DNA from: Salinibacteraceae bacterium
GTDB taxonomy: Bacteria; Bacteroidota; Rhodothermia; Rhodothermales; Salinibacteraceae
Direction: 5' to 3'
Assembly: GCA_007124945.1 (NCBI GenBank)
Contig: SLED01000197.1
Span: 1 to 40,888, forward strand
DNA: 40,888 bases
Part shown: positions 4,067 to 30,875 of the stretch, one piece after another
Layout of the letters: every line of letters starts with the position of its first letter
How positions within the stretch are numbered: position 1 is the stretch's first letter
The notes under the pieces: model-generated
What the model was told of the DNA's origin: nothing
The model's database searches: none
Seen by the model: only the letters and a program-made list of their open reading frames with translations
Made by a program: the position numbers and the translations under genes

Positions 4067-4100
4067 ATAACGCTCATTCAAACGCAATGGAGGATTTATT

Positions 4101-4586: not shown

Positions 4587-4674
4587 ATTAATGCTGCCTG
4601 AAGCGGGGCTGGCTGTTAGCTACTGCTCGGTAGCCGCTGAGGTGCGATGGCACCAGCTTAACGGTACACCGCAG

Positions 4675-4680: not shown

Positions 4681-4691
4681 TGGATGACACT

Positions 4692-5105
4692 ATGGAGGCC
4701 GGATTATATGACGTGCTGCGGGGGTGCTTTCATGACGGCACCAAGCTGAGCGAGACGCCCGAATCGTCATGGCGCATGCAGAGCGTGCTGTCCAATTTGA
4801 CACACCTGTTCAACACGCGCCAGGGTGCGATTGCGCACCTGCCGGAGTACGGGTTGCCCGATCCATCAATCGTGTATCGCGACTCTCCCGACGCCATCCA
4901 TGTGTTGCAGCAGTCGGTCCGGCGAGCAATAGAACGGTTTGAGCCACGGCTTCAGCGGGTACGTGTCCGGCATGTCGATCGCGAAGATGACGTGCTGCGG
5001 TTAACATTCGTGATATCGGCTCGCCTCGCCAGCGGACAACGCGTAAAATTGCAAACCACCTTCGCCTCCGACGACCTCGTGCAGGTAAGCCCCTGGATGC
5101 GATAA
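4692..5105 (+). CDS. tssE: T6SS baseplate protein TssE (gp25-like)
   Basis: TssE is the gp25-like baseplate wedge component that initiates sheath polymerisation, in complex with TssF, TssG and TssK. The 137-aa product carries the diagnostic 'TRQGAIAHLPEYGLPD' motif (about residues 42-57) and a C-terminal gp25 beta region with 'LQRVRVRHVDR' and 'LRLTFVISARL'. Start at ATG 4692 (MEAGLYDVL...) is chosen because of AAGGAG upstream; an in-frame GTG at 4680 would add four residues. It sits between hcp and tssF, in the order expected of a T6SS operon. Confidence 0.92.
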   Translation: MEAGLYDVLRGCFHDGTKLSETPESSWRMQSVLSNLTHLFNTRQGAIAHLPEYGLPDPSIVYRDSPDAIHVLQQSVRRAIERFEPRLQRVRVRHVDREDDVLRLTFVISARLASGQRVKLQTTFASDDLVQVSPWMR

Positions 5106-5232
5106 GCCGCTGAATGCTGCACCACCCTCGGGCGCAAGGCCCCAACAGCGCTTCGAAATACGAACACTGCCAGCTTTTTTCTCCTCTCGCGGCGCTACTA
5201 CCGCCTGACTTCCACATCGTCAACCGAGCTTT

Positions 5233-6996: not shown

Positions 6997-8036
6997 CCGA
7001 GGGCTCCCGGGAGGCCCCTCACTCGCGTGGCGATACCCGCGAGAACGAGGTCTACCGCCGCCTTTTTGAGGAAGGATATCGGTTCGATTTCTTCCAGGCG
7101 ATTCGTCTGCTGGAGCAATACGCTGAGGATGCAACTGCCCCCGGTGAAGTCACGGATATTCGTGAAGAGCGCGTTCGTCTGCGGCCACACGAAGGACTGG
7201 TGTTTCCGGCGGCCGATGTGCGCCGGGTATCGCCACCCACGGCGGACGGGACAGCCGCCGAGGTAACGAGCACCTTCCTGGGGTTGTACGGGATCGACTC
7301 CCCGCTACCGTACTATCTCTACGAGGATCTGGACTCAGACGAGGAGGATGTGCTGCCTCTTCGTGACTTCCTGGACATTTTCAATCATCGGCTCTATGCG
7401 TTTTTCTACCGGGCCTGGAGAAAGCACCGGCCCGGCATCTTTGGAAAACCTGGCCGGACTGATGAGCATGGCCGCCGCGCCCTTTCTATTGCCGGGTTGC
7501 CGCTGAGCATCGCGTCCGATGCGGCCAAGATAGATGACTTGCTCGCCGTTGCCGGTCACCTGGCCTCTCCCATACGCAATGCGCAGGGGCTGCGCCGTTT
7601 GCTCCGGGAAGTGTTTGATGAGCTACCGGTGCGCATCATCGAAAACATCAAGCGGTGGGTTTCCCTCCCATATCGGCCACGCATGGGCAGGCCTGAGAAT
7701 GGAAACGGGTTGTTGCTCGGGCGCACCACCACCATAGGCGAGCGCGTGCTCGACGTCGCAGGCATGTTTCGGATCGAAATCGGACCGATGTCGCTCGAGC
7801 AGTTTAAGTCGTTCCTTCCGCGAGAAGCCTCCGCCCGGCTCCTTGATGAAATCGTACGCCTGTACGCTCCGGATCACCTTCACTACGATGTGCGCCTCCT
7901 TCTCCACGCCGATGAAATCCCCAGCTGCTCGCTCGGCGACGGTGGGGTGCGACTCGGTATGAATTCCTGGCTGGGCCAACCCGAAAGCGATGTAACTGGA
8001 CGAGTGGTAACCTATGCATCCACGCACTACCTGTAA
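6960..8036 (+). CDS. tssG: T6SS baseplate protein TssG
   Basis: TssG (VasB/ImpH) is the partner of TssF in the baseplate wedge. Conserved blocks are 'GYRFDFFQAIRLLEQY' (about residues 38-53), 'VTSTFLGLYGIDSPLPYYLY', 'PLRDFLDIFNHRLYAFFYRA' and a C-terminal 'FLPREASARLLDEIVRLYAP'. The frame is open further upstream to 6855, but those residues overlap tssF deeply and resemble nothing in the family. ATG 6960 has AGGAA 10 nt upstream and gives a 358-aa product of normal length. The 37-nt overlap with tssF supports coupled translation of the two baseplate partners. Confidence 0.93.
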   Translation: MDPSERTATSRVTEGSREAPHSRGDTRENEVYRRLFEEGYRFDFFQAIRLLEQYAEDATAPGEVTDIREERVRLRPHEGLVFPAADVRRVSPPTADGTAAEVTSTFLGLYGIDSPLPYYLYEDLDSDEEDVLPLRDFLDIFNHRLYAFFYRAWRKHRPGIFGKPGRTDEHGRRALSIAGLPLSIASDAAKIDDLLAVAGHLASPIRNAQGLRRLLREVFDELPVRIIENIKRWVSLPYRPRMGRPENGNGLLLGRTTTIGERVLDVAGMFRIEIGPMSLEQFKSFLPREASARLLDEIVRLYAPDHLHYDVRLLLHADEIPSCSLGDGGVRLGMNSWLGQPESDVTGRVVTYASTHYL

Positions 8037-8062
8037 TCCCCCTGGACCTTGCATGTAAGACC

Positions 8063-13725: not shown

Positions 13726-13745
13726 GCGCATTGCGCGGCTATTTC

Positions 13746-14075
13746 ATGGCAAAACCAGCAGCTGTAGTTTCAAAGAACAATGTTCACGGCCCACCTCTCA
13801 TAGGAGCAGGTTGCCCGACGGTACTGATAGGCAATTTGCCCGCTTGGCGTGTCAGTGACCAGCACACGTGTCCCATGTTGAACAGCCCTCCACCATCCGG
13901 GCCTGGTACGCCGCATGGGCCGGGAGTCACGGCACCCTCGGGAGCGCCGACGGTCTTTATTGGGGGAATGCCTGCTGCCGTGTTGTCGGACAAGACCATC
14001 GAGCCAGGTGCCGTAGTCCCGCCGTTGGTACAGAATGTTACGATAGTGGGGGAGTTTACTGTGCTAATCGGATAG
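13746..14075 (+). CDS. PAAR-domain spike tip protein
   Basis: PAAR proteins form the sharp cone on VgrG and often carry or recruit effectors. The 109-aa product is essentially a stand-alone PAAR domain, with repeated 'GCPTVLIGNLPAWRVSDQHT', 'PHGPG' and 'GAPTVFIGGMPAAVLSDKT' segments and His/Cys candidates for zinc binding ('DQHTCPM'). It starts 20 nt after vgrG; ATG 13746 is preferred over a TTG at 13731, which lies almost at the vgrG stop and adds an unrelated MRGYF. The adjacent RHS gene suggests that PAAR and RHS, often fused in one chain, are split here. Confidence 0.92.
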   Translation: MAKPAAVVSKNNVHGPPLIGAGCPTVLIGNLPAWRVSDQHTCPMLNSPPPSGPGTPHGPGVTAPSGAPTVFIGGMPAAVLSDKTIEPGAVVPPLVQNVTIVGEFTVLIG

Positions 14076-14132
14076 GGATTTTCACGTAGCGGTTATCGAA
14101 AACCGTTGCTTTCGCTCTGGACCTTCAACGTT

Positions 14133-16856: not shown

Positions 16857-16862
16857 CTCGTG

Positions 16863-17996
16863 ATGAATCCGGAGCAAGATAACAAGACCGATCTGCCCGA
16901 GCTTCGGCCGGAGGCCTCGTTGCAGGGGGCTGACTTGGCGGGCGAAGAACTGGAAGACGTGGACCTTCGCGGCGCGGATCTGCGCGAGGCTCGCTTCGAG
17001 GGTGCCCTGCTGGTGGGCGTAGATCTGACCGGTGCGGACCTCTCCGGTGCTCATTTTGCTGGCGCACGCCTTCAAGATTGCTTGCTGGAGGATGCCGAAC
17101 TCTCAGAAGCCGTTTTCACCGGGGCGTGCCTCGAGTCCTGTCTACTCGAAGGCGCGAAGATGGGCGGGGCCATGCTCGATAGAGTAGAGATAGTAGAATC
17201 GGATCTATCAGGCGTTCAACTGGAGGGTGCGTCCCTTCAGGAAGGCCGTCTCATCTCCAGCCTTTTTAATGAAGCAGTGCTGGTTCAGGCCAACCTGAGG
17301 GGTGCGAGGATCTACCAAAGCAGTTTCGCCAGGGCCAACCTGAGTGGATGCAATTTTGCCGAAGCTACTGGAGAGTTGGCGTCTTTCGAGGAAGCGCGAA
17401 TGGTTAAGGTCGACTTCTCTGAAGCTGATCTCCGTACCTGCCTCTTTAAACACGCAACCGTAATTGAAGCGACATGTCGGGAGACAATCCTCTCCGGTAG
17501 TATTTTCGATCACGCATGCCTTGCGGGTTCCGCGTTTGAGGAGGCGCAGCTTGTGCGCATTCACGCACTGCGCGCTGACTTTTCGGCTTGCCGATTCATC
17601 AATACCCGATGCGTTGAAAGCACGTTCGCGCGAGCGTCACTTCACCAGGCAGCTTTTCTCGAAGCGGTTCTCGACTACGCCAATTTTGAGTTTGCGGACC
17701 TTCGTGGAGCGAGGCTATCAAAGACCCAAGCGCAACAGGCGAACTTTGTAGGGGTGGATTTGACGGGTGCGCAGGCAGGCGAGTGCTTGTTCTTTGGCGC
17801 AGATTTCTGGTGGGCGGAAACAGACGGTTTCGAGGTTCGGGAATCTGACATGAAGCACGCGCGCATGCCCGAGGCGACCCGGGTAAAAACTGCACCTCGG
17901 GCGCGTCCGCCCACGGTAACGCCTAAACCATTATATCGGAAGGCGGCCACACCCGAGAAGCGAGCCCGCCACAAAGCCGACGCGCTGCAGAAGTAG
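16863..17996 (+). CDS. Pentapeptide-repeat protein, T6SS-associated
   Basis: The 377-aa protein is nearly all A(D/N)LXX-type pentapeptide repeats from about residue 15 to 335 ('LRGADLREARF', 'LTGADLSGAHFAGARL', 'FARANLSGCNFAEA'). This predicts a right-handed quadrilateral beta-helix of about 16 coils. The last 40 residues are a basic Arg/Lys/Pro-rich tail. There is no signal peptide and no catalytic motif. It starts 6 nt after the RHS stop and is followed 22 nt later by a DUF2169 gene. Pentapeptide repeats are often fused to DUF2169 in T6SS-linked proteins, so the two gene products may act together as cargo or adaptor. A gyrase-protection role (Qnr/MfpA type) is a less likely alternative. The frame also allows GTG at 16860. 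Confidence 0.85.
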   Translation: MNPEQDNKTDLPELRPEASLQGADLAGEELEDVDLRGADLREARFEGALLVGVDLTGADLSGAHFAGARLQDCLLEDAELSEAVFTGACLESCLLEGAKMGGAMLDRVEIVESDLSGVQLEGASLQEGRLISSLFNEAVLVQANLRGARIYQSSFARANLSGCNFAEATGELASFEEARMVKVDFSEADLRTCLFKHATVIEATCRETILSGSIFDHACLAGSAFEEAQLVRIHALRADFSACRFINTRCVESTFARASLHQAAFLEAVLDYANFEFADLRGARLSKTQAQQANFVGVDLTGAQAGECLFFGADFWWAETDGFEVRESDMKHARMPEATRVKTAPRARPPTVTPKPLYRKAATPEKRARHKADALQK

Positions 17997-18018
17997 TCAC
18001 CCTCGAAGGGTAGCCACT

Positions 18019-19170
18019 ATGATAATCCGGAATGAGACAGATTTTGAGGTCGCGACGACCTTTGGTACGGGCCAGGATAATCAGCCATGCATTGCATTCA
18101 TCGTGAAGGCCACTTTTCGATTGCCTCAACAAATCGGTGAGACGCCCACGCTTGCCGGGCAGCAATTGCCCATTGCTGCCGCCGCCGAGTACTTTGACGG
18201 CGACAGCTCGGGGAGTGTGTCTATGGAGAGTGACATGGTTACGTTTAAGCCGTACGCTGACATCGTGGTGTCGGGAACGGCGTATGCTCCGGGAGGCCGC
18301 CCATCATCCAGCGTGGACGTGCTTGTTCGCGTCGGTCAAAAGCGAAAGGTGCTTCGGATTTTCGGAGATCGTCAGTGGATCTTCCCCAGCCGGATGGTGA
18401 TGAAGCCGGTCATGAGTGATCCAGATCCGTTCACCGAAATGCCAATAATCTACGAGCGGGCATTTGGCGGGATTGACGGAGATGCCGGAAAGCATTGCAC
18501 GCAGAATCTGATAGGACGGGGCTATCTGGGAAAGAAGACGAAAGAGTCGGTGCATGAGACAAGGCTCCCGAATGTTGAGGATCCCACCCGGCTCATAAGC
18601 TCCTGGAAAGACAAGCCGATGCCGGCGGGCCTTGGATTCTACGGGCGGGCGTGGCAGCCAAGGGCGGCGCTTGCTGGGTCCGAGGAAGGCTTCGATAACG
18701 CGCATCCGTTTTTCGGTACGGCCGAAGATTTCAATCCGGCTTTTAACAACGGCGCACACCCCGACCTTCAGGTTGCACACTATCTTTCCGGCGATGAAGA
18801 GGTTGAATTGATCAACCTGACGCCTGATCGGAAACGCCGCTTTCAGTTACCGGGCATCCGGCCTGCGCTAACCATCGAGCGTTACAATGAGCCTCCGGAC
18901 ATTGAGGACCCCGATGTACTTGAGGCAATCGCAGCGGTAATGAATGAAGATGCTCCAGCCGACTTGGAGGGCGCGGTGCAGCCTCAGTACTCGCTCGAGA
19001 TGGACCAGCAGGACGTTGCGATGCATCTGGACACCCTGGTTTTTCTTGCGGACGACGACCTGTTCTACATGGTCTGGCGCGGGCAATTGCCGGTCGGTCC
19101 CGTAATTACGGAAGACGACATGGTAGACGCGTTTCTCCGCCTTGCTAAAGTTCATGTGCATCTCGAGTAG
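18019..19170 (+). CDS. DUF2169-domain protein, candidate T6SS effector adaptor
   Basis: The 383-aa product has the DUF2169 signature along its length: N-terminal 'PCIAFIVKATFRL', then 'FKPYADIVVSGTAYAPGG', 'KRKVLRIFGDRQW' and 'DPFTEMPIIYERAFGG' (about residues 135-150). DUF2169 proteins are known as adaptors needed to load some PAAR- or VgrG-linked effectors; the best-known case is the Agrobacterium Tde2 system. The start has GAAGGG eight nt upstream. The closest candidate clients are the pentapeptide protein and the RHS protein immediately upstream. No secretion signal is seen, so it should act in the cytoplasm. A 365-nt gap follows. Confidence 0.9.
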   Translation: MIIRNETDFEVATTFGTGQDNQPCIAFIVKATFRLPQQIGETPTLAGQQLPIAAAAEYFDGDSSGSVSMESDMVTFKPYADIVVSGTAYAPGGRPSSSVDVLVRVGQKRKVLRIFGDRQWIFPSRMVMKPVMSDPDPFTEMPIIYERAFGGIDGDAGKHCTQNLIGRGYLGKKTKESVHETRLPNVEDPTRLISSWKDKPMPAGLGFYGRAWQPRAALAGSEEGFDNAHPFFGTAEDFNPAFNNGAHPDLQVAHYLSGDEEVELINLTPDRKRRFQLPGIRPALTIERYNEPPDIEDPDVLEAIAAVMNEDAPADLEGAVQPQYSLEMDQQDVAMHLDTLVFLADDDLFYMVWRGQLPVGPVITEDDMVDAFLRLAKVHVHLE

Positions 19171-19535
19171 TTCGCGGCGTTCTGCGTTGACTTAACGACA
19201 CCAGGTGGCAACAATCTAATTCCGCGGTGAAAAAGACATTTTTAGGGGCAAGTTGGCTCTTTTCGTCCGGAAAGTTGCCTAAGAGACGCATTTGTACATG
19301 CTCCCTTTAACGCAAAAACCCATACCCGCATCGACGGGCTGGCCCAAAGCCGCCATGGCTGATTTGATCATTTGAAAGACGCTATCTATTTTAACAAACG
19401 GTGAAGGCCCTGCGGGAAGGCCTGACGTAGATGGACGCGTGGTTAATGATCCGATCAGTGAGTGCGGGTGGCTTTGTGCCTTCCCAGAAGCGTAGCAATG
19501 CTGGTTCACGATCAATAGACGGTAGGTGGAGATCC
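19171..19535. other. 365-nt non-coding gap before the fused sheath gene
   Basis: No convincing gene is seen. It contains an A5-GACA-T5 inverted repeat (19230-19243), a sequence related to the 11-nt repeat of the tssB leader (19207-19217, opposite orientation) and a candidate promoter at 19364-19392. It probably separates the effector module from the regulatory module. Confidence 0.5.
19364..19392 (+). promoter_or_regulatory. Candidate sigma-70-like promoter for the TssBC-fusion/FHA/PP2C/kinase unit
   Basis: TTGATC (19364-19369) and TATTTT (19387-19392) are separated by 17 nt, each matching consensus at four of six positions. The element lies about 145 nt upstream of the preferred start at 19536. 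It is the best-spaced pair in this gap, but promoter rules of this lineage may differ. Confidence 0.35.
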
Positions 19536-21431
19536 ATGGCTGACGACGCGCACCGAAATGTTGGTACTCGCATAACCTCTGATCCGGAGCGTACGGAGAT
19601 TGACAAGCCGTATGCTTCAAAGGATCAGGCGGTGGACATGCCGTTCAGGCTTCTCTACGTCGGTAATCTCTGCCCCGAACGCTCTGCTCCGGACTGGAAA
19701 GACGGATCTGAAGTTTTGTCTGTGGATTCGCAGGGTTTTGCTAAGTGCATGCAAGAGATTGCGCCGCGGCTCAACATCGACATTCCCAACCGGCTCGGCG
19801 AGCAGCCAAGAATACTGGAGATCGAGCTCGCGTTTTCATCTTTGGATGCCTTTGAGCCAGTAGCCATCGCCCGGCAAATTGACATCCTGGCCCCGCTTCT
19901 TGACGTGCGAGATAATTTGGAAGGCGTGGTACAGGGCAGGGCGTCGGTTGAGGAGCTCGGGAAGCAGCTGCGCGATCAATTTGGCGATACGCTCTGGGGG
20001 CAGGCCCTCATCGAAGCGCTTGAGTCCGACGCAGAAGCGAAGGCAGAGGAGGCCGCCGATAAAACCAGTACCCTCGACCGGCTTCTGGGTATGGTGGATA
20101 TGGGCGAGAACGGAAAGAATACCGCGCGTCCAAAGGGGGAGGCCGAAGAACTTGCGGACCGCATCACTGATGCGCTGCTCGGCCCTTCGCAGCAGCCCAC
20201 GCGCAAACGACCCGGCACGCCGGTAAAGCAGGCACTCGCCGACCTTGACCTGATCCTCGGGCGGCAACTAAATGAGATTCTAAATCATCCATCGGTCAGG
20301 GACCTGGAGTCCTCCTGGAGGGGGCTTAAAATGCTGGTCGATCGCCTCAACTTTCGAGAGAACGTATATCTGGAGGTGCTGCCGGCTACGAAATCGCAGC
20401 TTAACGAAGCGTTGCACTACCAGGTCGTGTTGCCGGAGCACGAGCGAGGAGGGTCTGGCCCGCCTCTTTCGGCTATTGTTGTCGACATGTCGTTCGGGAA
20501 CGGGAAGCAGGAGGTTGAGCAGCTTGAGGACCTGGCGAAGTCGGGCGCCAGTTTGCAAACGCCCATCGTGACGGATGCGGCGCCGTCGTTTTTTGGTGTC
20601 CAGAACCACGAGCGGGTAGCTGGCATCCCACCGCTAAATCAGCTTTTCGAGCAGCCGGAGTATATTGCGTGGCAAAAGCTGCGCGAAGAGCAGGAAGCCT
20701 CGCAGCTGGCGCTAACCGTGCCGTCCCTGCTGCTGCGTTATCCGTATGGAGACGAAAATCCTGTAGACGGCATCAATTTCAACGAGGCAGGTGCGCTGTG
20801 GGGGAGAGGGTGCCTTGCGGTGGCTGCTGCCATGGCGCAGAGCTACGTGGAGACAGGTTGGCCCACCCACATCCACAAGCGCCGGCTGGAGAATTTTCCC
20901 GTGGTGCCGCGGCCACAGGGGCATGCCCCCCTCGGCGCAGTTATTCCAAGCAGCAGGCAGTCAGAATTTGGGAAGGCCGGCTTTACCGTACTCGGGGCAC
21001 GCACGAACCGGGACACCATCGACGTCGCGCGCGCTCAAACGGTCGCCCGGCCGGAGTCGCACGATGACCTGGTATCACAGACCGAGGCCAAGATTCACGT
21101 AACGTTGCCCTGCCAGCTATTTGTCTCGCGCATGGCGCATTTCCTGCTCATGATTCAGGAGGAGTTGGAGCCTGTAGAACGGGCAGAGGAGCTGGTGGCA
21201 CCGGTGTCCGAGCGCGTCAGAGCGTTTCTGAAGGGCAAGATGGGCGACCCCGTCCCTCGCGACGCCGTATCGGTGGAGCCGGTGAAGCACGCAGAGATCC
21301 CGGATCAGTACCTGTATGCCGTCCGGCTGAAAACGCCCAAAAATGTTTTGCCTCGCGAGGTCAGCCTTGTGTTGGGCTTGAGGGCTCCAAAAGTCACCAC
21401 CGAAAATGGCGAAACGGATTCGGATGGATAA
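19536..21431 (+). CDS. Single-chain TssB-TssC fusion, second T6SS sheath-like protein
   Basis: The 631-aa product joins a TssB-like and a TssC-like domain. Residues about 33-175 match TssB in order ('MPFRLLYVGNL', 'DAFEPVAIARQIDILAPLLD', 'VRDNLEGV'). At about residue 177, 'TSTLDRLLGMVDMGE' resembles the N-terminal helix of TssC, and the rest follows TssC ('LESSWRGLKMLVDRLNFREN', 'TDAAPSFFGVQ', 'CQLFVSRMAHFLLMIQEELE', 'EVSLVLGLRAP'). It diverges clearly from the stand-alone TssB and TssC at 1867-3980, so it is not a recent copy. ATG 19536 has GGTGGAG just upstream and removes an odd 35-residue leader allowed by ATG 19431. It might cap or terminate the sheath, form a baseplate-proximal ring, or serve another contractile structure; the role is unknown. 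It precedes the FHA/phosphatase/kinase genes. Confidence 0.88.
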   Translation: MADDAHRNVGTRITSDPERTEIDKPYASKDQAVDMPFRLLYVGNLCPERSAPDWKDGSEVLSVDSQGFAKCMQEIAPRLNIDIPNRLGEQPRILEIELAFSSLDAFEPVAIARQIDILAPLLDVRDNLEGVVQGRASVEELGKQLRDQFGDTLWGQALIEALESDAEAKAEEAADKTSTLDRLLGMVDMGENGKNTARPKGEAEELADRITDALLGPSQQPTRKRPGTPVKQALADLDLILGRQLNEILNHPSVRDLESSWRGLKMLVDRLNFRENVYLEVLPATKSQLNEALHYQVVLPEHERGGSGPPLSAIVVDMSFGNGKQEVEQLEDLAKSGASLQTPIVTDAAPSFFGVQNHERVAGIPPLNQLFEQPEYIAWQKLREEQEASQLALTVPSLLLRYPYGDENPVDGINFNEAGALWGRGCLAVAAAMAQSYVETGWPTHIHKRRLENFPVVPRPQGHAPLGAVIPSSRQSEFGKAGFTVLGARTNRDTIDVARAQTVARPESHDDLVSQTEAKIHVTLPCQLFVSRMAHFLLMIQEELEPVERAEELVAPVSERVRAFLKGKMGDPVPRDAVSVEPVKHAEIPDQYLYAVRLKTPKNVLPREVSLVLGLRAPKVTTENGETDSDG

Positions 21432-21467: not shown

Positions 21468-23345
21468 ATGAAAAGGCGTACCTCATCAAGCTCCGCCCGT
21501 CCAAGCGCCCTGCTGGTGACGTTCAAGTCCCCGAAAGGCGGCAGGGAGTCACGGCGCATTACCGGCCGGGCGACGGTGGGACGCGGCTCTGACTGTGATA
21601 TTCAGATAGATGCAGCCCTCGTAAGCCGCGTGCACGCCTCGCTGCAGTATCAGGATGGTTCCTGGTGGGTGATCGACGAGCAGAGCACGAACGGCGTCTA
21701 CGCCGACGGAAAGAAGCGGCCCCGCGTAGAGGTGGTCGGGACGGTAGAGGTGCACCTGGGGAAGAGCGGGCCCGTCATTACGCTCCAACTGGAAAATGAA
21801 GCTTCACCTGCCAAAGGTCGCCCGCCGCAACAGGCAACTGACGCGCGAAAATTGAGTGATCACAAGCGTAGTCGACCAAGTCACGATCCGCCGAAGACCA
21901 GTACCGAACAACCCTCAACCACTCCGGACAGGCCGTCACCGGTTGAGGGCCCAGGCAGTGATGGTAGTGAAAATCGAGCAAGCGGCCAGCGTCGTGGACC
22001 TGAGAGTCGGGCGTCTGCTGATGACCGCGAAGATGATCCAGATGTCAGCGCTGAACAAGAAAGTCGCGCACAGAGATCTCCAGATACAGGCAGGCACGCG
22101 ACAGGAAAGTCCTCTACGTCCTCGAAAGCGTCCGATCGTAGGTCGTCCGAGAAGCCCGGGCGTCCTGCAGGTGGGTTGAAGCCGCTGGAGCACAAGCCCA
22201 CCACTTCGCACTTCCGCAGGAAATACTTTTCGGAGGAAGGTGGGGCCGGCGGAGAGCACACCCGCATGATTCGGAAGGCCTATCAGCAAGAGAAGAAGAA
22301 GCACACGCGGAAGTATCTGTATGTGTTGGCGGCCGTCGGGGTGGTGCTGCTATTTGTGGCGGCCTATGCCGTTTTTCAGCATGTGCAGAATCAGCGCCTT
22401 GAGCAGCGCGCCAGCGAGATTTTCTACGAGATGCGGCAGCAGGATATGCAGCTGGCGCAGATCAGCCTGGCGATAGAAGAAGCAGGCGGGTCTGAGTTTG
22501 ATGAGCTGCTGGCTCAGATGCAGCAAATGCGCGAGCAGATGGCGAGCAGGTACGAGGGCTACGTCAATGAGCTTGGGGTTCATCGCGGGCTCAACGAGGA
22601 AGAGCGCCTGATTTACACGGTAGCGCGTATCTTCAATGAGGGAGAGTTCGAGATGCCTGCCGGGTTCATCCGAAATGTCCAGCAGGAAATAAGAGACTAC
22701 TGGCTGGCTCAGGGGCGAAGCAGGTTTGCCGGCGCAATTGAGCGAGCAGAGGAAAACGGATACACTCCTTACATCGTCCGGACGATGAAGGAGCACGGAC
22801 TACCCCCTGAGTTTTTCTATCTTGCACTGCAGGAGAGTAATTTTCAGCTCGACGCTGTTGGCCCGGAGACACGATGGGGCATAGCAAAGGGCATGTGGCA
22901 GTTTATCCCGTCAACCGGACGAGCCTACGGGCTGACGATCGGTCCGCGAGAAGACGTCCGCGTCTTCGACGATCAGGATGAGCGGCACGATGTGGAAGCC
23001 TCCACGGTAGCAGCCGCACGCTACAAGGCAGAGATCTACAGCACCCTCGCGCAGGCATCCGGGCTTCTGGTCATGGCCTCGTACAACTGGGGAGAAAACC
23101 GGATTGTGAGTAGGCTGGATCAACTGTTTGAGGGTATTCCAGAGAACCCACGTGAGCGTAGCTACTGGCGATTCCTGAGTGAATACGAGGACCGGATGCC
23201 CGAGGAAACCAAGCAATACGTGATTCGGATTTTCGCTGCTGCCGTGATAGGGCAGAACCCGCGGCACTTCGGCTTTGATTTCGACAACCCACTGACGCCC
23301 CATATCGAAGAGGTGGCGGACGAGCGACTAACAACTGCACCCTGA
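21468..23345 (+). CDS. FHA domain - transmembrane helix - lytic transglycosylase fusion
   Basis: The 625-aa protein begins with a cytoplasmic FHA phosphothreonine-binding domain (about 13-105; 'VGRGSDCDIQID', 'VSRVHASLQY', 'DEQSTNGVYADGKK'). A long disordered Ser/Asp/Arg/Pro-rich linker (about 110-270) follows, then one transmembrane helix (about 283-305), a coiled-coil-like stalk, and a periplasmic MltD/SLT-type transglycosylase domain (about 415-605). The catalytic Glu is probably E456 in 'LALQESNF', with 'GMWQFIPSTGRAYGL' and 'MASYNWGENRI' as the usual motifs. No signal peptide precedes the FHA, which fits an N-in/C-out topology. The linker is rich in possible phosphorylation sites. The phosphatase gene starts 4 nt downstream and the kinase follows, so the fold likely couples threonine phosphorylation to local peptidoglycan cutting, perhaps for T6SS passage. 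Confidence 0.92.
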   Translation: MKRRTSSSSARPSALLVTFKSPKGGRESRRITGRATVGRGSDCDIQIDAALVSRVHASLQYQDGSWWVIDEQSTNGVYADGKKRPRVEVVGTVEVHLGKSGPVITLQLENEASPAKGRPPQQATDARKLSDHKRSRPSHDPPKTSTEQPSTTPDRPSPVEGPGSDGSENRASGQRRGPESRASADDREDDPDVSAEQESRAQRSPDTGRHATGKSSTSSKASDRRSSEKPGRPAGGLKPLEHKPTTSHFRRKYFSEEGGAGGEHTRMIRKAYQQEKKKHTRKYLYVLAAVGVVLLFVAAYAVFQHVQNQRLEQRASEIFYEMRQQDMQLAQISLAIEEAGGSEFDELLAQMQQMREQMASRYEGYVNELGVHRGLNEEERLIYTVARIFNEGEFEMPAGFIRNVQQEIRDYWLAQGRSRFAGAIERAEENGYTPYIVRTMKEHGLPPEFFYLALQESNFQLDAVGPETRWGIAKGMWQFIPSTGRAYGLTIGPREDVRVFDDQDERHDVEASTVAAARYKAEIYSTLAQASGLLVMASYNWGENRIVSRLDQLFEGIPENPRERSYWRFLSEYEDRMPEETKQYVIRIFAAAVIGQNPRHFGFDFDNPLTPHIEEVADERLTTAP

Positions 23346-23349
23346 TCCT

Positions 23350-24102
23350 GTGAACTGGTGGCGACGCAAAAAACGAAACAGCCTGCAGGTGGGCGAGCGC
23401 TCCGCCGTCGGGCAGGTACGCTCGGAAAATCAGGATGCGTGTGCCCACCTGACGGATGAGCGGGATGCGGGGGTAAATCTCTGCATCGTAGCCGACGGCA
23501 TGGGCGGACATGACGATGGGCGAGAGGCCAGCACGCTCGCGGTGGAGATCGTGGGCGAGGTATTCTTTGAGATGGCCGGGGAGCCCATTCCAAACAGGCT
23601 GCAACGATCACTCGAAGCCGCCAACGTAGCGATCTGGAACCGATCCAATGGCCGCGCCGGCCGGCGCATGGGTACGACCTGCACCACCCTTGCGCTCAAT
23701 GAATCGGGCGCCTTCATTGCACATGCCGGTGATAGCCGAGCCTATCGCATCACCCGAAAGCGTATGGAGCAACTCACGCAGGACCACACCGTCGTGCAGG
23801 AGATGATGCAGGCCGGCATCCTCACAGAAGAGGAGGCGGCCGCGCATCCCAAGCGAAACGCATTAACACGGGCACTCGGGATGGATGATACCATTGAAGT
23901 AGATGTCCTCCCGGAGCTTCCTTTGCAGGCGCGCGACCGATATCTGCTCTGTTCGGATGGACTCTTACTCGTAGACGAGCAGGAAATATACCAGATTGTG
24001 CGAGAGCACACGCCGCAGGAAGCCTGCGACCAACTCGTAGCACGCGCAAACGAGCGCGGAGGCCACGACAACATTACCGCGATGGTTATCGCTCTTCCGT
24101 AG
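23350..24102 (+). CDS. PP2C-family Ser/Thr phosphatase (PppA-like)
   Basis: This metal-dependent phosphatase should reverse phosphorylation by the kinase encoded next. The 250-aa chain is a bare PP2C domain with all acidic metal-site motifs: 'RSENQDA' near the N-terminus, ADGMGG (D49), HAGDSRAY (D128), CSDGL (D203) and GGHDN (D240). There is no transmembrane segment, so it is cytoplasmic. The start is GTG at 23350, 4 nt after the transglycosylase stop; no ATG is available before the first conserved motif. Its position between FHA and kinase genes parallels PppA in the threonine-phosphorylation pathway of Pseudomonas T6SS. Confidence 0.94.
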   Translation: MNWWRRKKRNSLQVGERSAVGQVRSENQDACAHLTDERDAGVNLCIVADGMGGHDDGREASTLAVEIVGEVFFEMAGEPIPNRLQRSLEAANVAIWNRSNGRAGRRMGTTCTTLALNESGAFIAHAGDSRAYRITRKRMEQLTQDHTVVQEMMQAGILTEEEAAAHPKRNALTRALGMDDTIEVDVLPELPLQARDRYLLCSDGLLLVDEQEIYQIVREHTPQEACDQLVARANERGGHDNITAMVIALP

Positions 24103-24129
24103 TAAACGAATGAGGTCTTAAGCGAAGCC

Positions 24130-26106
24130 ATGGATAGTTATCAAGATCCTGCCATCGGCAAAGAGGTGGACGGGTACCGTATTTTGGAGGTGCTCGGGCA
24201 GGGGGGGATGGGCATCGTCTACAAGGCAGAGGATGTCAACCTCTCCCGCATGGTTGCGCTCAAGATGATCGATCCGGGACTGGCCCGTGATGAAGCCTTT
24301 CTGCGTCGATTCCGTGCAGAGGCCCGCGCACTTGCGCGCATCGATAGCCGGCATATCGTTAGCGTCCACGCGCTGCGGGAGACCGATCTGGGCCTCTTTA
24401 TCGTGATGGAATTTGTGGATGGAGGCACGGTGTCCGATCTGCTGGAGGATGGACCCATGGCGTGGGAGGAGGCGCTTCCTGTCATACTTCAGACGCTCTC
24501 AGCACTCGAGGATGCCCACAGCGTGGGCGTATGGCATCGCGACATCAAACCCGGAAACATCCTGATATCGAAGGACGGCAAGGTGAAGGTAACCGACTTC
24601 GGTCTGGCCAAGCTCCATCAGGCCGGCGACGGATCGCAAACCGTGACGCAGGGCATTTCGGGTACGCTCTACTACATGTCGCCCGAGCAGGTAAAGGGGG
24701 GCGTTGATCTGGATCACCGGACGGACCTCTACTCCGCCGGCATGATGATCTACAAGATGCTGGCGGGTAGGCTTCCATTTGATCGCTCGGCTGGCGACTT
24801 TGCCATCATGCGCAAAATTGTAGAGGAGCCCGTACCCCGCCTCGACGGAGCCCGGGACGACCTGCCCCCGGCGCTCGTGGATGCTGTAGAAAAGGCCTTG
24901 CGCAAAGATCCCGACGATCGTTTTGCTACGGCCCGAGAGATGCGTCGGACCCTGGAAGGGCTCGCGGAAGCCGGAGCCCCCACACCGGTGCCCGACAGAT
25001 CACGAGACACGGCAGCAGCGAACACTGGCACAACGAAGCGGGGCTGGCTGATAGCCGTCTCCACCCTGCTGCTCCTGATGATTCCCCTGTCTGTCTATCT
25101 TTATCCGGCTGGAGAGAACGGGGACACAGCCTATTCGCTTGCCGAAATTACCACAGATCCCGAGGGTGCCACCGTTATGCTGGACGGAGACGTGGTGGGC
25201 GAATCGCCTGTACAAAATCTTCAACTGGAGCGCGATGAAGTAACCGTTCGAGTCCAAAAAGAAGGGTATGCAGCTGTTGACACGGTGGTGCTGTTGCAGG
25301 CCGGAAGTCCTGCGCAGCTCAGTCTTACGCTTGCTGAAGAGATGGACACAGGGACCCTCCGCATTACCTCAACACCGGAGGACGCCAACGTTTACGTAAA
25401 TGGCGAGGCGATTGGAGTAACGCCGTTCGTACATTCAGAGTGGCCATCGGGGATTGCCACAATCCGCCTGGAGAAGGAGGGGTACGAGCACTGGGAGGAG
25501 GCAGACGTTGAGATTGCGTCGGGCGAGGCGCAACATGTTGCCGCCAACCTTGAGCCCATCGCCGCGGGGCCCGGCGATACGACCGAAGAACCGGATCCCA
25601 CGCCCGAACCGGAGCCTGCCACCCTCTTGGCCGAGGTGCATCCCACGGGCACCATTTCGGTAGCGGGGCGGCAGGCTGAGAGCAGTGGCACGTTCCAGCT
25701 TCAACCGGATACGCACCAACTCGTCTTCTCCCATCCCGAGCACGGCTCTGTGGATACCACCTTGCAGTTAAGTGAGGCTGAACAGCACAACATCGCCGCG
25801 TATTTCGAGCATGAGGTCAATATTAACACCGACGGCCCGTGGGCTTCCATCCGGCTAAACGGCGAGAGCATCGATGCCACTACCCCGCGGCGTCTCAACC
25901 TCGGACCCGGCACCCACGTGCTCCACCTTCGGATAGATGGCAGGGACGAGTTCGAGATCGACGGCGGCGTACATCGCATCGAAGTAGCCGGTGAGGAACG
26001 CTTCCGACGCGAGTTTACAGGAAACGAGTATACACTTACGCTGGAGCCGGCATTCCAGCCGCACGATCACTTTCTGATTTTCCGAACGCATGAACGATCG
26101 CCGTAA
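24130..26106 (+). CDS. Transmembrane Ser/Thr protein kinase with PEGA repeats (PpkA-like)
   Basis: The 658-aa Hanks-type kinase has an intact cytoplasmic catalytic domain: Gly-loop GQGGMG (23-28), Lys45 in VALKM, HRD at 136-138, DFG at 156-158 and 'YYMSPEQ' as the APE-like motif. A Pro/Thr-rich juxtamembrane region leads to one transmembrane helix (about 306-325). The outer part carries two clear PEGA domains (about 338-404 and 408-475; 'DPEGATVMLDGDVVGESP', 'PEDANVYVNGEAIGVTP') and two weaker PEGA-like beta segments to residue 610. PEGA domains are surface or cell-wall associated and could be the signal input. Likely substrates are ligands of the upstream FHA domain; the upstream PP2C is the natural antagonist. 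Confidence 0.94.
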   Translation: MDSYQDPAIGKEVDGYRILEVLGQGGMGIVYKAEDVNLSRMVALKMIDPGLARDEAFLRRFRAEARALARIDSRHIVSVHALRETDLGLFIVMEFVDGGTVSDLLEDGPMAWEEALPVILQTLSALEDAHSVGVWHRDIKPGNILISKDGKVKVTDFGLAKLHQAGDGSQTVTQGISGTLYYMSPEQVKGGVDLDHRTDLYSAGMMIYKMLAGRLPFDRSAGDFAIMRKIVEEPVPRLDGARDDLPPALVDAVEKALRKDPDDRFATAREMRRTLEGLAEAGAPTPVPDRSRDTAAANTGTTKRGWLIAVSTLLLLMIPLSVYLYPAGENGDTAYSLAEITTDPEGATVMLDGDVVGESPVQNLQLERDEVTVRVQKEGYAAVDTVVLLQAGSPAQLSLTLAEEMDTGTLRITSTPEDANVYVNGEAIGVTPFVHSEWPSGIATIRLEKEGYEHWEEADVEIASGEAQHVAANLEPIAAGPGDTTEEPDPTPEPEPATLLAEVHPTGTISVAGRQAESSGTFQLQPDTHQLVFSHPEHGSVDTTLQLSEAEQHNIAAYFEHEVNINTDGPWASIRLNGESIDATTPRRLNLGPGTHVLHLRIDGRDEFEIDGGVHRIEVAGEERFRREFTGNEYTLTLEPAFQPHDHFLIFRTHERSP

Positions 26107-26289: not shown

Positions 26290-28071
26290 ATGTGGTTCAA
26301 GCATGCAATGTGGAATAGATTTTTTCGACGATTACTGGCGTTTTTCGTAGGCGTCCTCTGCCTGTGCTTTACTCTGCATGATGCGCACGGACAGGAAGAT
26401 CCGCTGGAGGAGGGCACCGAGGCGTACTATGCGGGGGACTACAGCGGGGCTGTGGAGCTGCTCCAGGAGGTTCTGGCCGACGCCGATGCCACCGATGAGG
26501 CGAGGCGACAGGCCTTGCGGTATCTCGGCCGCTCCTTCATCCACGAAGGAGACGAAGATGAAGCACGGGAAGCGGTTCGCGACCTGTTGAATTTGGAGCC
26601 ACCGCCCGTAGAGTTCGACCCCGATGTTGAGCCACCTCCTTTGATGCGCCTCTATTACGAGTTGCGCCGCGAGCAGGAGGCTGCCGATGCCGAGGATGGA
26701 ATGCAAACCCTCGCAATACTCGACTTCGCGAACGACTCGGTAGATGAACGCGATCGGTACGATGGACTAACGCGCGGTTTGCCTTCAATGATGATAAGCC
26801 ACATGAGTGGGGCTACCGGCCTGCGCGTGATTGAGCGAGAGCGCATTCAATGGATACTGGACGAACTTGAGTTTCAGCAGGATGCCGAGCTCGTGGATCA
26901 GGAAACCGCGGTGGAAACCGGTCAATTGCTTGGCGTTCACGCGGTTGTGATGGGGAGCTTCATTGTTCACGAAGATGAAATGACGCTCACCGCGCGCCTC
27001 GTCGAAGTTGAAACAGGCCATACACCGCTCTCGGAGCAGGTATCTGGCTCGGCCAATAACTTCTCCGACCTGATAGCAGAGCTCAGCGGAAAGCTGTCGG
27101 ATGCACTTGGCGTGGAAGTGGGAGCTGGCGCAGGCGAGGGCGAAACGCGCTCGCTGGAGGCTATCATGGCCTATTCGCAGGGGTTGGCCGCGCAGGAAGA
27201 AGGGAATTACCGGCGGGCCTATACGGAATTCGTCCGTGCCCTTGAGCTCGATCCTGGATACACCCGGGCAGAGCGCCGCGCGGAGAGCCTCCGACCCATG
27301 ATTGCAGGGCCCGTCACCTCTACCTCGCTTACGATTGGGTTTCAGAATACCGACTTCTACTTCGCCGGACAGGGTACCGATACCGTCTTCGACTTCAGTT
27401 CCCCGCTGTTTGCGGTAACACTTTCAAGTCACCGCGGATCACTGACGGCGGCGTATGGGACCTCGACGCTCACGTCGGTTGCTACCGGTGAGGAACCAGC
27501 CTTCCAGGCCAGCCAGCAACTGCTGCAAATAAGCGGTACCTACGGTGGGAATGCCTATCTTGCACACACGATTGAGCAAGCTCCCCTGGCCATCTACGTG
27601 CCCTTCCGACTGAAGGGCGGCTACCAGTATGTGAACACGGACGATCCGGGAGTTTTCGAGTCCGAGCTTGAGAGTCAGCACATTGTAGATGCCGGGCTTG
27701 GAGCGGGCATTGGGTCACAGTTTCGATTCACCGATTTGCCCGGTACCAGCGGCACTGCCGTGCTCGGCAATCTCGTGCTTGAGGGCTCAGTCATGTTCAT
27801 CCCGGCAGGCTATGCCAACGTAACGGACGGTTTCGGCGACGTTTACATGAGTCGAACCCGGGACATCAACTTAGAAGTCCGGCTGGTGGAGTTGCTGAGA
27901 ACCGGAGTGGGAAGTGGTCTCGGCATCACACTGGGCTTTACGCATCGAACCATCGGTCGCGCTCAAGAGCAAGTTGACAGCTTCGGTGACGTATTGAGCG
28001 ATGCCTTTGGGGTGGGTAGCCTTGACCGCGTGTCAACTCAGCGACTCTTTCGGGTTGGCATCAACTGGTAG
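26290..28071 (+). CDS. TPR/CsgG-like protein with C-terminal outer-membrane barrel
   Basis: The 593-aa precursor has a signal peptide (about 1-34, ending AHG before QED), a TPR-like helical region (about 37-110), and a segment 'DVEPPPLMRLYYELRRE' shared with the next gene. A CsgG/FlgO-like domain (about 138-270) carries 'LAILDFANDS', 'LRVIERERIQWILDELEF' and 'TGQLLGVHAVVMGSF'. A further TPR follows (about 285-330), then about 260 residues of alternating strands ending in Trp ('RVGINW'), typical of an outer-membrane beta-barrel. It likely sits in the periplasm and outer membrane. It starts a three-gene paralogue series; the exact function is unknown. Curli-type export by a full CsgG pore is not implied, as the match is to the soluble fold. 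Confidence 0.8.
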   Translation: MWFKHAMWNRFFRRLLAFFVGVLCLCFTLHDAHGQEDPLEEGTEAYYAGDYSGAVELLQEVLADADATDEARRQALRYLGRSFIHEGDEDEAREAVRDLLNLEPPPVEFDPDVEPPPLMRLYYELRREQEAADAEDGMQTLAILDFANDSVDERDRYDGLTRGLPSMMISHMSGATGLRVIERERIQWILDELEFQQDAELVDQETAVETGQLLGVHAVVMGSFIVHEDEMTLTARLVEVETGHTPLSEQVSGSANNFSDLIAELSGKLSDALGVEVGAGAGEGETRSLEAIMAYSQGLAAQEEGNYRRAYTEFVRALELDPGYTRAERRAESLRPMIAGPVTSTSLTIGFQNTDFYFAGQGTDTVFDFSSPLFAVTLSSHRGSLTAAYGTSTLTSVATGEEPAFQASQQLLQISGTYGGNAYLAHTIEQAPLAIYVPFRLKGGYQYVNTDDPGVFESELESQHIVDAGLGAGIGSQFRFTDLPGTSGTAVLGNLVLEGSVMFIPAGYANVTDGFGDVYMSRTRDINLEVRLVELLRTGVGSGLGITLGFTHRTIGRAQEQVDSFGDVLSDAFGVGSLDRVSTQRLFRVGINW

Positions 28072-28207
28072 CTGCCCTCGCCCACCGTGGAAATCACCAA
28101 CTAAGTCTCTGGGGTTCATCCAACGGAGTAGAAAAAACCGTTCATAAAAATATTTGGCGCATGACCTTTTGTGCTTAACATGGGTGGCGTTGTTGCGCCT
28201 TTGCGCG

Positions 28208-28213
28208 TATACT
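28208..28213 (+). promoter_or_regulatory. Candidate -10 box (TATACT)
   Basis: TATACT lies about 200 nt before the lipoprotein start. No good -35 at 16-18 nt is visible; TTGTTG at 28190-28195 is too close. Same hexamer as the one before tssB. Weak. Confidence 0.22.
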
Positions 28214-28402
28214 CTTTTAGTAGAGATTAGGCGACCACGAGTGTTGTGGTTGTGCGATTGGTAGCGCACAGGGTCGCTTTAGCAAAGCCCGATACCACAT
28301 GATGTAACACGGGAGGATGGAAGACGCCTGGTCCGTGTTTGTCGTGGGCGGGTACCGGTAGTTTTAAACAGATCAAGTGCAGGTTCTCTATGTCGATGTT
28401 GC

Positions 28403-28409
28403 AAGGAGG
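28403..28409 (+). promoter_or_regulatory. Ribosome binding site fixing the second CsgG-like gene start
   Basis: AAGGAGG at 28403-28409 stands seven nt before ATG 28417. It is the strongest Shine-Dalgarno sequence noted in the window and selects this start over upstream in-frame codons at 28339 and 28390. Confidence 0.65.
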
Positions 28410-28416
28410 CAGATCA

Positions 28417-29523
28417 ATGAAGCGAATTCGACGGATGCCGTTTACGCTTTTCGTCATGATGGCAGCAGCAGTGGTTCTGGTAAGCTGTGCTACGTCGCCG
28501 GCTGTTGACACGTCCGCGGAGGTGAGCGAAGTGACCGCAGACGAGCCCGAAACTGTTGAAACCGTTCCGGATGAGGCCGCGGTTGCTCCGGATCCAGAGC
28601 TTGAGCGCGCCATCAATCAGTATGACGAAGGCCGATACAACGAAGCGATCGAGGCTTTTGCGCAGATCGCACAGGATGGGGAAAGGGAAATCGCGACGCG
28701 GCGCACGGCGTTGCAGTACCTTGGCCGGGCCTATCTCGCCCGGAACGAAATGGAGTATGCGCGCGAGGCGATTCATGAGCTGCTGGAGCTTGAGCCTCCG
28801 CTGGTGGAGTTAAATCCTGATGTTGAGCCTCCTCCTCTTATGAGGCTCTACTACGAGGTGCGAAAGGAATTTGCCGGCAGCTACGAGGTGGAGCGCGAAG
28901 ATTCCGACCTGCACACCATGGCAATCATGGACTTCACGAACAGTTCGGTAGATGATTTTGAGCAGTTCCAGCCGATGCAGCAGGGCTTCGCTTCGATGTT
29001 TATCAACCACATGAGCGGGGCCACCGATCTGCGTGTCATTGAGCGGGAGCGGCTTCAGTGGTTGCTGGAGGAGCTTGAGCTTCAGCGCGACCCGCAATTG
29101 ATTGATCAGTCAACCGCTGTGCAATCCGGACAGCTGCTCGGGGCATCGACCGTATTGTTTGGCTCGTTCACGGTACATGGCGATCAGATGCAGGTAATGG
29201 CGCGTCTGGTGCAGGTAGAAACCGGCGAAATTCTTCTCTCGGAGTCGGTGCGCGGCGAACGCGATAACTTCTTTGATCTCGCCGAACAGTTGAGCCTGGG
29301 AATAGCGCAGTCGATTAATGTGGCGCTGGATCAAGACACGATTGGCGAGCAGCGTGATACCCAGTCGCTGGATGCCATGATGGCCTATTCCGAGGGGTTA
29401 GTCCTGCTTGAGCGAGAGGAGTACGAGGCCGCCTACGAGAAATTTAACGAGGCGCTGGAATATGATCCGGAGTACGAGCGTGCCCGCGCCAGAGCCCAGA
29501 GCGTGCAGCCGTTGCTCAGCTAA
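28417..29523 (+). CDS. TPR/CsgG-like lipoprotein, paralogue 2
   Basis: The 368-aa precursor starts with a lipoprotein signal (MKRIRRMPF..., lipobox LVSC). An acidic Thr/Glu/Val linker, TPR-like helices, the shared 'DVEPPPLMRLYYEVRKE' segment and a CsgG/FlgO-like domain follow ('MAIMDFTNSSVDD', 'LRVIERERLQWLLEELEL', 'SGQLLGASTVLFGSF', 'MARLVQVETGE'). A C-terminal TPR ('AYEKFNEALEYDPEYERARA') closes the protein. It is a close paralogue of the preceding gene but lacks the barrel, so it ends where that protein's membrane domain would begin. Membrane anchoring by lipid replaces anchoring by barrel. Function is unknown; assembly or stabilisation of an envelope complex is inferred from CsgG-like relatives. 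Confidence 0.82.
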   Translation: MKRIRRMPFTLFVMMAAAVVLVSCATSPAVDTSAEVSEVTADEPETVETVPDEAAVAPDPELERAINQYDEGRYNEAIEAFAQIAQDGEREIATRRTALQYLGRAYLARNEMEYAREAIHELLELEPPLVELNPDVEPPPLMRLYYEVRKEFAGSYEVEREDSDLHTMAIMDFTNSSVDDFEQFQPMQQGFASMFINHMSGATDLRVIERERLQWLLEELELQRDPQLIDQSTAVQSGQLLGASTVLFGSFTVHGDQMQVMARLVQVETGEILLSESVRGERDNFFDLAEQLSLGIAQSINVALDQDTIGEQRDTQSLDAMMAYSEGLVLLEREEYEAAYEKFNEALEYDPEYERARARAQSVQPLLS

Positions 29524-29567
29524 TGCCACCCCATCGTTCAATGTAAGTCATCCCCACCCTCGAGTCC

Positions 29568-30875
29568 TTGTTTTCAATCTTCCGGTTTCCTCTTCTCGCT
29601 CTTGTCGCCGGCCTGCTGCTGGCCGGTTGCGCATCGGTGGACTATTCGGTGGTTGACCCGGAGTTGTACGAGGGGACGATAGAGCGCTTGGAGCGAGAGC
29701 TCGAGCGCAACCCGGACAACATGGAGGCGCGTCGGGACCTCGGGATCGTCCACCTTCGCACCGGCCAGTTTCGACAGGCGCGCCAGGAGCTGCGCACCGC
29801 CTATGAGGCAGGTGCAGAGGACCCCGAAACGTTGTTTAGCCTCGGGCTCGCACATGAGCGTTCCGGCGAGCGCCGCGACGCGATGAACATGTACCAGCGA
29901 TATACGGACGTCCCGTCGTCGTCGCGATATCGTGATCCAATGCAAGGCCGGTATCAAATTCTCGTCCGCGATGTCGCACGCGAGCAGGTGCGTAGAGCTT
30001 TGCAGGCTGAGGCAGATCTGGCAGATGTTGCACCAACCAGAGAGGTTGTGGCTGTGGTGCCGCTGGCCTATCAGGGCGATGAACCCAGGTTCGAACCGCT
30101 TGGCTTCGGACTGGCCGAAATGATCTCCGTGGACCTGGCGCAGGTTCGACAGCTTCGCGTTGTTGAGCGAGCCCGGCTTAATGTGCTGCTGGATGAACTG
30201 GAGCTCGCAGCCACCGACTTTGTCGATCAGGAGGCAGCGCCGCGTGCGGGCCGGCTGTTGGGGGCAGGTCGTATTGTTGGAGGGGCATACAACGTATTTG
30301 CTGATGTGGATCTGCAGCTCGACACGGCTTTTTGGGAGCTTGATCGTGCGGAGGAACCCACATTCGATTCGAAGCAGGATGCTCTCGAAAATCTTTTCGT
30401 ACTGCAAAAAGAGCTGGTGTTCGCGCTGCTCGATGAAATGAATATCCGGCTCACAGCAGCGGAGAGAGAGCGCATAGGGGAGCTGCCGACCGACGACCTT
30501 GAGGCTTTTCTCGAGTTCGGTCGTGGACTTATGCTGGAGCGCGTCGGGCAATTCCAGGAGGCGGTGCAGGCCTTTGAGCAGGCCTCCACGCTCGATCCGC
30601 AATTCTCCGAGGCTGTAGCGGCGGGTGAACGGGCGCGAGGGGTAGATGCAGCTTCGGGCGATGCAGCCTCGTTCCAGCGAACAGTGCAGGGGCCTGACAT
30701 CGTAGCCGAGCCGTCGGGCGCTACACCCGTTACCCGGCGTCTGCGCCAGTTGGGCACTGGGCTCGGCATTGGCGAGATCCCGGACGACCCCGCCGATGAG
30801 AGGCGTCCTGCGCCTGAGGTCTCAGACGAGGCGCCTCGCCTGCCCGATCCACCGCCCCCACCATCGAACGATTAG
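29568..30875 (+). CDS. TPR/CsgG-like lipoprotein, paralogue 3
   Basis: The 435-aa product has a lipoprotein signal ('LLALVAGLLLAGC') and TPR repeats (about 35-115; 'EARRDLGIVHLRTGQF', 'ETLFSLGLAHERSG'). The CsgG/FlgO-like domain (about 160-290) has 'LRVVERARLNVLLDELEL' and 'AGRLLGAGRIVGGAY', a TPR lies near 315-345, and the C-terminal tail is Pro/Asp-rich, ending in a run of prolines. It is more diverged than the two preceding paralogues and lacks the DVEPPPLMRLYYE segment. The start must be TTG 29568, as no ATG or GTG sits in frame before the signal peptide; this makes the exact start less certain. It lies 44 nt after paralogue 2 and 16 nt before the giant secreted protein, so these are probably cotranscribed. 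Confidence 0.8.
   Translation: MFSIFRFPLLALVAGLLLAGCASVDYSVVDPELYEGTIERLERELERNPDNMEARRDLGIVHLRTGQFRQARQELRTAYEAGAEDPETLFSLGLAHERSGERRDAMNMYQRYTDVPSSSRYRDPMQGRYQILVRDVAREQVRRALQAEADLADVAPTREVVAVVPLAYQGDEPRFEPLGFGLAEMISVDLAQVRQLRVVERARLNVLLDELELAATDFVDQEAAPRAGRLLGAGRIVGGAYNVFADVDLQLDTAFWELDRAEEPTFDSKQDALENLFVLQKELVFALLDEMNIRLTAAERERIGELPTDDLEAFLEFGRGLMLERVGQFQEAVQAFEQASTLDPQFSEAVAAGERARGVDAASGDAASFQRTVQGPDIVAEPSGATPVTRRLRQLGTGLGIGEIPDDPADERRPAPEVSDEAPRLPDPPPPPSND

Follow-up and report, generated by a model that had tools for sequence, protein, structure and literature searches.

Known systems and the locus studied

The closest described systems are the threonine phosphorylation pathway of the type VI secretion system (T6SS) and the peptidoglycan enzymes that open the cell wall for this machine. 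In the PpkA/PppA/Fha pathway, as in the Pseudomonas H1-T6SS, Agrobacterium and Acidovorax, the T6SS locus encodes a transmembrane Ser/Thr kinase with a periplasmic C-terminus, a PP2C phosphatase and an FHA protein. Phosphorylated Thr14 of TssL is bound by Fha in Agrobacterium (PMC3953482), and T640 of Fha is phosphorylated by PpkA in Acidovorax (PMC12607579). A recent review states that the T6SS requires a peptidoglycan enzyme, MltE or TagX, to open the wall, and that T6SS clusters do not commonly encode wall-cutting enzymes (PMC10433429). It is an open point in what way the wide membrane complex of the T6SS gets through the peptidoglycan and what keeps the cutting local. Here we analysed a stretch of 40,888 bp (the window), which is the entire contig C8 (SLED01000197.1) of a metagenome-assembled Salinibacteraceae genome (415 contigs, 85.8% complete). 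Its T6SS genes are accompanied by a gene for one protein with an FHA domain, a transmembrane (TM) helix and an SLT-type transglycosylase domain, named FHA-SLT below.

We consider it probable, at roughly 60%, that FHA-SLT is a dedicated, inner-membrane-anchored transglycosylase of the canonical TssJLM-type system (T6SSi), recruited or clustered by the binding of its FHA domain to phosphothreonine, while the phosphorylation is set by the kinase and the PP2C encoded beside it. The locus resembles the PpkA/PppA/Fha pathway in having a TM Ser/Thr kinase, a PP2C and an FHA protein, and complete relatives also have a separate TagH. It differs from this pathway in that an extra FHA protein is fused via a TM helix to a transglycosylase, PEGA repeats are predicted outside on the kinase, and a candidate phospho-Thr lies within FHA-SLT itself.

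In enteroaggregative E. coli the lytic transglycosylase MltE, recruited and stimulated by TssM, opens the wall for the T6SS, which is the role that we propose here for FHA-SLT. MltE is a housekeeping enzyme. FHA-SLT, by contrast, has its gene in the T6SS cluster, is of MltD type, is predicted to be inner-membrane-anchored and contains a domain of the phosphopeptide-reading type. The peptidoglycan endopeptidase TagX of Acinetobacter is also encoded in a T6SS cluster, but it cuts peptide stems, and descriptions of it mention neither an FHA domain nor a kinase link. By analogy, a role comparable to that of MltE or TagX would be the best reading. In the open-access literature, judged by titles and abstracts, we found no description of an FHA protein with a transglycosylase in T6SS, or of a PEGA domain with T6SS; the covalent joining of a phospho-reader and a wall cutter across the membrane would be the new element.

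Domain architecture of FHA-SLT

21468..23345, forward strand: FHA-linker-TM-SLT protein of 625 residues (Pfam, alignment, AlphaFold)
21510..21791, forward strand: FHA domain, residues 15-108 (Pfam, AlphaFold strands, Foldseek)
22317..22373, forward strand: predicted TM helix, residues 284-302, N-in/C-out (hydropathy, positive-inside count)
22719..23285, forward strand: lytic transglycosylase domain of MltD type (family 1D), about residues 418-606 (Pfam SLT, NCBIfam PRK10783, PDB 8rhe)

A single chain holds both the Pfam FHA domain (residues 36-86, E 1.4e-14) and the Pfam SLT domain (residues 440-547, E 1e-13). The AlphaFold model has an FHA sandwich at residues 15-108 (predicted local distance difference test, pLDDT, of blocks mostly 88-96), disorder at 112-244 and a long helix at 261-339, inside which the TM segment sits; the C-terminal domain of the model is helical. 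Seven Lys/Arg residues flank the TM segment on its N-side and two on its C-side; therefore the FHA domain is predicted to be cytoplasmic and the SLT domain periplasmic. The original prediction had described an FHA domain, a TM helix and an MltD/SLT-type transglycosylase with Glu456 in one chain, and this agrees with Pfam, hydropathy, AlphaFold and an alignment of 15 homologues spanning two phyla.

The residues of a phosphothreonine-binding FHA pocket (GR, SxxH and N(G)) are present as G38 and R39, S53-R54-x-H56 and N75-G76, and are invariant in this alignment. The best PDB matches by Foldseek are the FHA domains of Rv1747, GarA and OdhI. GarA and Bdellovibrio DgcB are among the structural matches, and GarA/OdhI and DgcB resemble FHA-SLT in carrying an FHA domain and a (here candidate) phospho-Thr in the same chain. 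These proteins are soluble, whereas here the Thr is beside a TM helix leading to a predicted periplasmic enzyme. The TagH equivalog TIGR03354 gave 29 bits against a cut-off of 120.25 (best stretch 34-194), and by this score FHA-SLT is not TagH.

The transglycosylase domain has the catalytic Glu in an ES motif (E456 S457, the Glu456 codon being 22833-22835), G475-MWQFIP and Y539-N-W-G, all invariant in the 15 homologues, and these are the motifs of family 1D (ES, GMWQ and YNWG). The C-terminal part matches PDB 8rhe, a LysM-containing lytic-transglycosylase-type protein, by sequence profile (E 2.1e-16). The MltD equivalog NCBIfam PRK10783 gave 60.9 bits, below its threshold of 508, and on this measure the domain is a relative of MltD and not MltD itself. 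It shares the ES, GMWQFIP and YNWG motifs of the catalytic domain with MltD-type enzymes (PDB 8rhe, PRK10783); unlike these, it belongs to a membrane-anchored FHA protein in which Pfam finds no LysM domain.

Neighbouring phosphatase and kinase

23350..24102, forward strand: PP2C-type Ser/Thr phosphatase, GTG start (Pfam; NCBIfam Stp1/IreP above cut-off)
24130..26106, forward strand: PEGA-bearing TM Ser/Thr kinase (Pfam Pkinase E 3.9e-48, PEGA 1.4e-32)
25153..25557 (approximate bounds), forward strand: PEGA repeats of this kinase, predicted to be periplasmic (Pfam, two stretches, best 408-476)

The PP2C carries the motifs ADGMGG, GDSRAY, SDG and DNIT. The kinase has HRDIKPGN, DFG and SPE, followed by a TM helix at 306-324 and then the PEGA domains. 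The phosphatase and kinase had been expected to follow within about 30 nt, and indeed the PP2C starts 4 nt past the FHA-SLT stop and the kinase 27 nt past the PP2C stop. The kinase is predicted to be N-in like FHA-SLT, which places PEGA outside; the two predicted topologies thus agree with the earlier claim that PEGA lies on the same side of the membrane as the transglycosylase. The tss locus encodes a PP2C and a TM Ser/Thr kinase whose catalytic motifs are intact, as in the known threonine phosphorylation pathway of T6SS, and by analogy we propose a PppA-like role for the PP2C and a PpkA-like role for the kinase. The PP2C is not obligatory, for the kinase gene comes directly after FHA-SLT in two other genomes (G012, G008).

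Distribution and link with T6SS

7..10765, forward strand: T6SS core genes for TssA, TssB, TssC, Hcp, TssE, TssF, TssG and ClpV
10861..19170, forward strand: VgrG, PAAR, RHS protein, pentapeptide-repeat protein and DUF2169 protein
19431..21431, forward strand: TssB-TssC fusion paralogue (Pfam VipA 63-195 and VipB 267-537 in one chain), directly upstream of FHA-SLT

A second contig of the same genome, C330, begins within TssK and encodes partial TssK, TssL, TssM and TagF. The core genes of a canonical T6SSi, including TssM, TssL and TssK, are therefore found over the window and C330 together. No TssJ was observed in the genome of the window; it is present in G001, which is another species of this genus. 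The relatives of the window's genome include, as we take it, a Salinibacter-like genus and other Rhodothermales.

The FHA-TM-SLT architecture was found in Rhodothermales, other Bacteroidota and Desulfobulbia. Among 114 Rhodothermales genomes, 22 have the fusion and 24 have TssM (both 19, fusion only 3, TssM only 5, neither 87; Fisher p=2.8e-14), and among 243 sampled Desulfobulbia genomes, 34 of them TssM-positive, all 7/7 fusion carriers have TssM (p=5.9e-7), both tests counting genomes as independent although they are not. In most loci examined the FHA-SLT gene is among tss, VgrG and TssB-TssC fusion genes. The complete locus, in G033 and G001, has the order TagH-TssJ-K-L-M-TagF-TssA-B-C-Hcp-E-F-G-ClpV-VgrG-PAAR-RHS-Penta-DUF2169-TssBC-FHA-SLT-PP2C-kinase. 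In G001 the locus from TagH to FHA-SLT is on one contig, and the rest of FHA-SLT, the PP2C and the kinase are on another; the two contigs overlap at their ends, with the end sequence ERAATTGAVPPPREATGADDAA in common. G479, which is not a member of the Rhodothermales, also carries the fusion within a T6SS locus, accompanied by PP2C and PEGA kinase. Because the synteny is kept in many genomes, the gene arrangement is not chance. A predicted transglycosylase, conserved and cluster-encoded in two phyla, is joined here to the type of phospho-reader which governs T6SS assembly. The co-occurrence of the architecture with tss genes, which it had been proposed to test, is borne out by the TssM association and the synteny in two phyla. 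Its wide occurrence without tss genes had been named beforehand as the contrary outcome; the architecture does occur without a sheath gene, in G406, G584 and G368 and in the degenerate forms of family f9, as an exception and not as the rule.

Peptidoglycan enzymes are common T6SS effectors, and VgrG, PAAR and RHS genes are nearby, so one reading of FHA-SLT is an antibacterial effector that the T6SS fires and that cuts peptidoglycan. We find this hardly credible. A cytoplasmic FHA domain, a TM helix and the coupling with kinase and PP2C typify a component of the machine, none of the genes beside FHA-SLT was recognised as a candidate for immunity, and the position of the gene is far more conserved than is usual for effectors.

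The TssB-TssC fusion beside FHA-SLT is preserved in most Rhodothermales loci. In the window it shows 27% identity to the local TssC and no VipB_2 match. Some Desulfobulbia loci have a relative of this fusion nearby on the opposite strand. The Salinibacter-like G017 (L099, L140) has a T6SS without the FHA-SLT module, and a lone TssB-TssC fusion elsewhere on its chromosome.

Juxtamembrane threonine motif

22251..22274, forward strand: juxtamembrane motif GEHTRMIR, residues 262-269, with candidate phospho-Thr265 (homologue comparison)

After a linker that cannot be aligned, the motif G[EDSQ][HR]T-x-x-[IVLMF] stands just before the TM helix in all intact homologues. A hydrophobic residue at the third position after the phosphothreonine agrees with the known preferences of FHA domains. 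In an automated table, from which two truncated sequences were set aside, the motif is present in 28/28 homologues with both an intact FHA pocket and E456 and in 0/5 with either lost, two of these (G078, G368) having a decayed pocket and three (family f9) a dead SLT domain; the 28 sequences are related and do not count as 28 independent events. The loss of the motif falls in three separate lineages of the protein tree, which is midpoint-rooted only. Thr265 thus varies together with both the pocket and the active site.

In G078 the FHA pocket and the Thr are lost and the SLT active site is retained. Its pocket residues read GS, RDEH and NQ, and those of G368 are likewise decayed (GN, SPQH, TG). 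Over-extension of the open reading frame was ruled out as the cause of an apparently FHA-less N-terminus in G078, since FHA-like sequence with altered pocket residues is present. Within some 72 kb surrounding the T6SS genes of G078, searches detected neither TagH nor a kinase nor a PP2C, and the sole two Pkinase matches in this genome sit on another contig. Some caution is needed with these two variants, because the whole linker of G368 is short and the whole cytoplasmic part of G078 has diverged.

Among the genes of the loci the motif is essentially restricted to FHA-SLT, with single matches elsewhere in a VgrG, a kinase and a TssM, one each. G[EDSQ][HR]Txx as a general kinase-target motif of the locus is not supported by such isolated matches. 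With Thr265 named as candidate phosphosite, and with natural variants lacking either half of the protein, the coupling is directly testable.

Separate TagH scaffold

In the complete loci (G033, G001) the first gene is a separate TagH/Fha, so FHA-SLT is a second FHA protein there, beside the ordinary Fha scaffold. The idea that it stands in place of the usual FHA scaffold is not borne out, and replacement of Fha by FHA-SLT was ruled out on this ground. By eye, a Thr that follows the FHA domain is conserved in TagH of the genomes bearing the module; G001 has DDERTVFAASF and G033 has DDRTVF, for example. In the module-less, Salinibacter-like G017 and G080 the conserved Thr is missing and the FHA pocket of TagH looks decayed, also by eye. 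This pattern fits a phospho-circuit which may be common to TagH and FHA-SLT.

Proposed function and alternatives

In the reading that we prefer, the periplasmic MltD-type domain would cut glycan strands, and then the TssJLM complex or the tail would pass the wall. The cytoplasmic FHA domain would be the phosphothreonine reader. The PEGA kinase and the PP2C would set the phosphorylation state of Thr265, and probably also that of the separate TagH, with the PP2C reversing the phosphorylation. Binding between FHA and phospho-Thr, from one FHA-SLT protomer to another, with TagH, or both, would concentrate the enzyme where the T6SS assembles. More tentatively, and with the odds somewhat against it, the kinase may switch the wall-cutting enzyme across the membrane: PEGA would possibly be a sensor facing the wall or envelope, phosphorylated Thr265 would be bound by FHA of neighbouring protomers or of TagH, and the clustering at the nascent T6SS would couple wall opening to assembly. 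The earlier proposal of a phospho-controlled, site-specific opening of the wall for T6SS thus stands in its link with T6SS, and indirectly in its phospho-control (the phosphothreonine pocket, the candidate Thr and the adjacent kinase and phosphatase); the site-specificity is only an inference. Taken this way, the locus suggests that the cell may use phosphorylation to decide where its own wall opens for T6SS.

Several observations weigh against this reading, besides the relatedness of the motif-bearing sequences. AlphaFold puts Thr265 in the first turns of the helix 261-339, and a Thr at the start of a helix might be conserved for a structural reason. FHA-SLT might then be a T6SS enzyme with FHA as a constitutive docking module and without any phospho-switch of the cutting, and the kinase and PP2C would act on TagH only, which is the classical target of PpkA (PMC12607579) and, in genomes with the module, has a conserved Thr of its own (e.g. 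DERTVF). This is unlikely in our view: the pocket residues are invariant in intact homologues and decay jointly with Thr265 in G078 and G368, while a purely structural Thr is not expected to track the FHA pocket.

The family f9 (G032/L012, G063/L087 and G062/L089) also counts on the opposite side, for it keeps an intact FHA domain and the kinase with a dead SLT domain, the catalytic Glu being lost. A PEGA kinase is nearby in 3/3 of these loci, a PP2C is adjacent in G062 and G063, and TagH is adjacent in G032 and G063. The VipB sheath gene was not found in the genomes G032, G063 and G062, of which G062 has TssK-TssL-TssM (L112). Such a gene, kept without its catalytic Glu among its usual neighbours, would fit a peptidoglycan-binding anchor or sensor, whose periplasmic domain would tether the complex to the wall and not cut. 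We regard this as highly unlikely, as Glu456, GMWQFIP and YNWG are retained in nearly all other homologues, even with the decayed regulatory part of G078 and G368.

The link with T6SS has exceptions in both directions. No VipB sheath gene was found in G406, G584 and G368, which are Bacteroidota genomes of 98-100% completeness carrying the fusion, and a strict tie of the architecture to T6SS is ruled out by them. In G406 and G584 (L126, L130) the FHA, the Thr and the SLT motifs are intact, and the gene adjoins that of the exo-muramidase NamZ (Pfam in G406). From these two genomes one might think of a phospho-regulated envelope transglycosylase of general use, which is often but not necessarily carried with T6SS. 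This seems quite unlikely given the strong TssM co-occurrence in two phyla, and the sheath-less pair stands in the tree among T6SS-linked relatives such as G479, a grouping of modest support under the midpoint root. In the other direction, five TssM-bearing Rhodothermales genomes lack the fusion (G017, G080, G019, G022, G077), and it is therefore not essential for every T6SS. The module is an accessory of some T6SSs and not a core part.

Other genes and observations

26290..30875, forward strand: three TPR-CsgG/LpoB-like envelope proteins, after the kinase

A search of plasmids gave generic transglycosylases only. Relatives of the TPR-CsgG/LpoB-like proteins come after the kinase in most related loci. 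As LpoB activates wall synthases, a wall-repair partner for the cutter is conceivable among them by analogy. Further downstream, at 30850-35631, there is a large protein with PQQ/BamB-like and Ig-like repeats, whose C-terminal domain is of FlgD type and which has relatives in many related loci.

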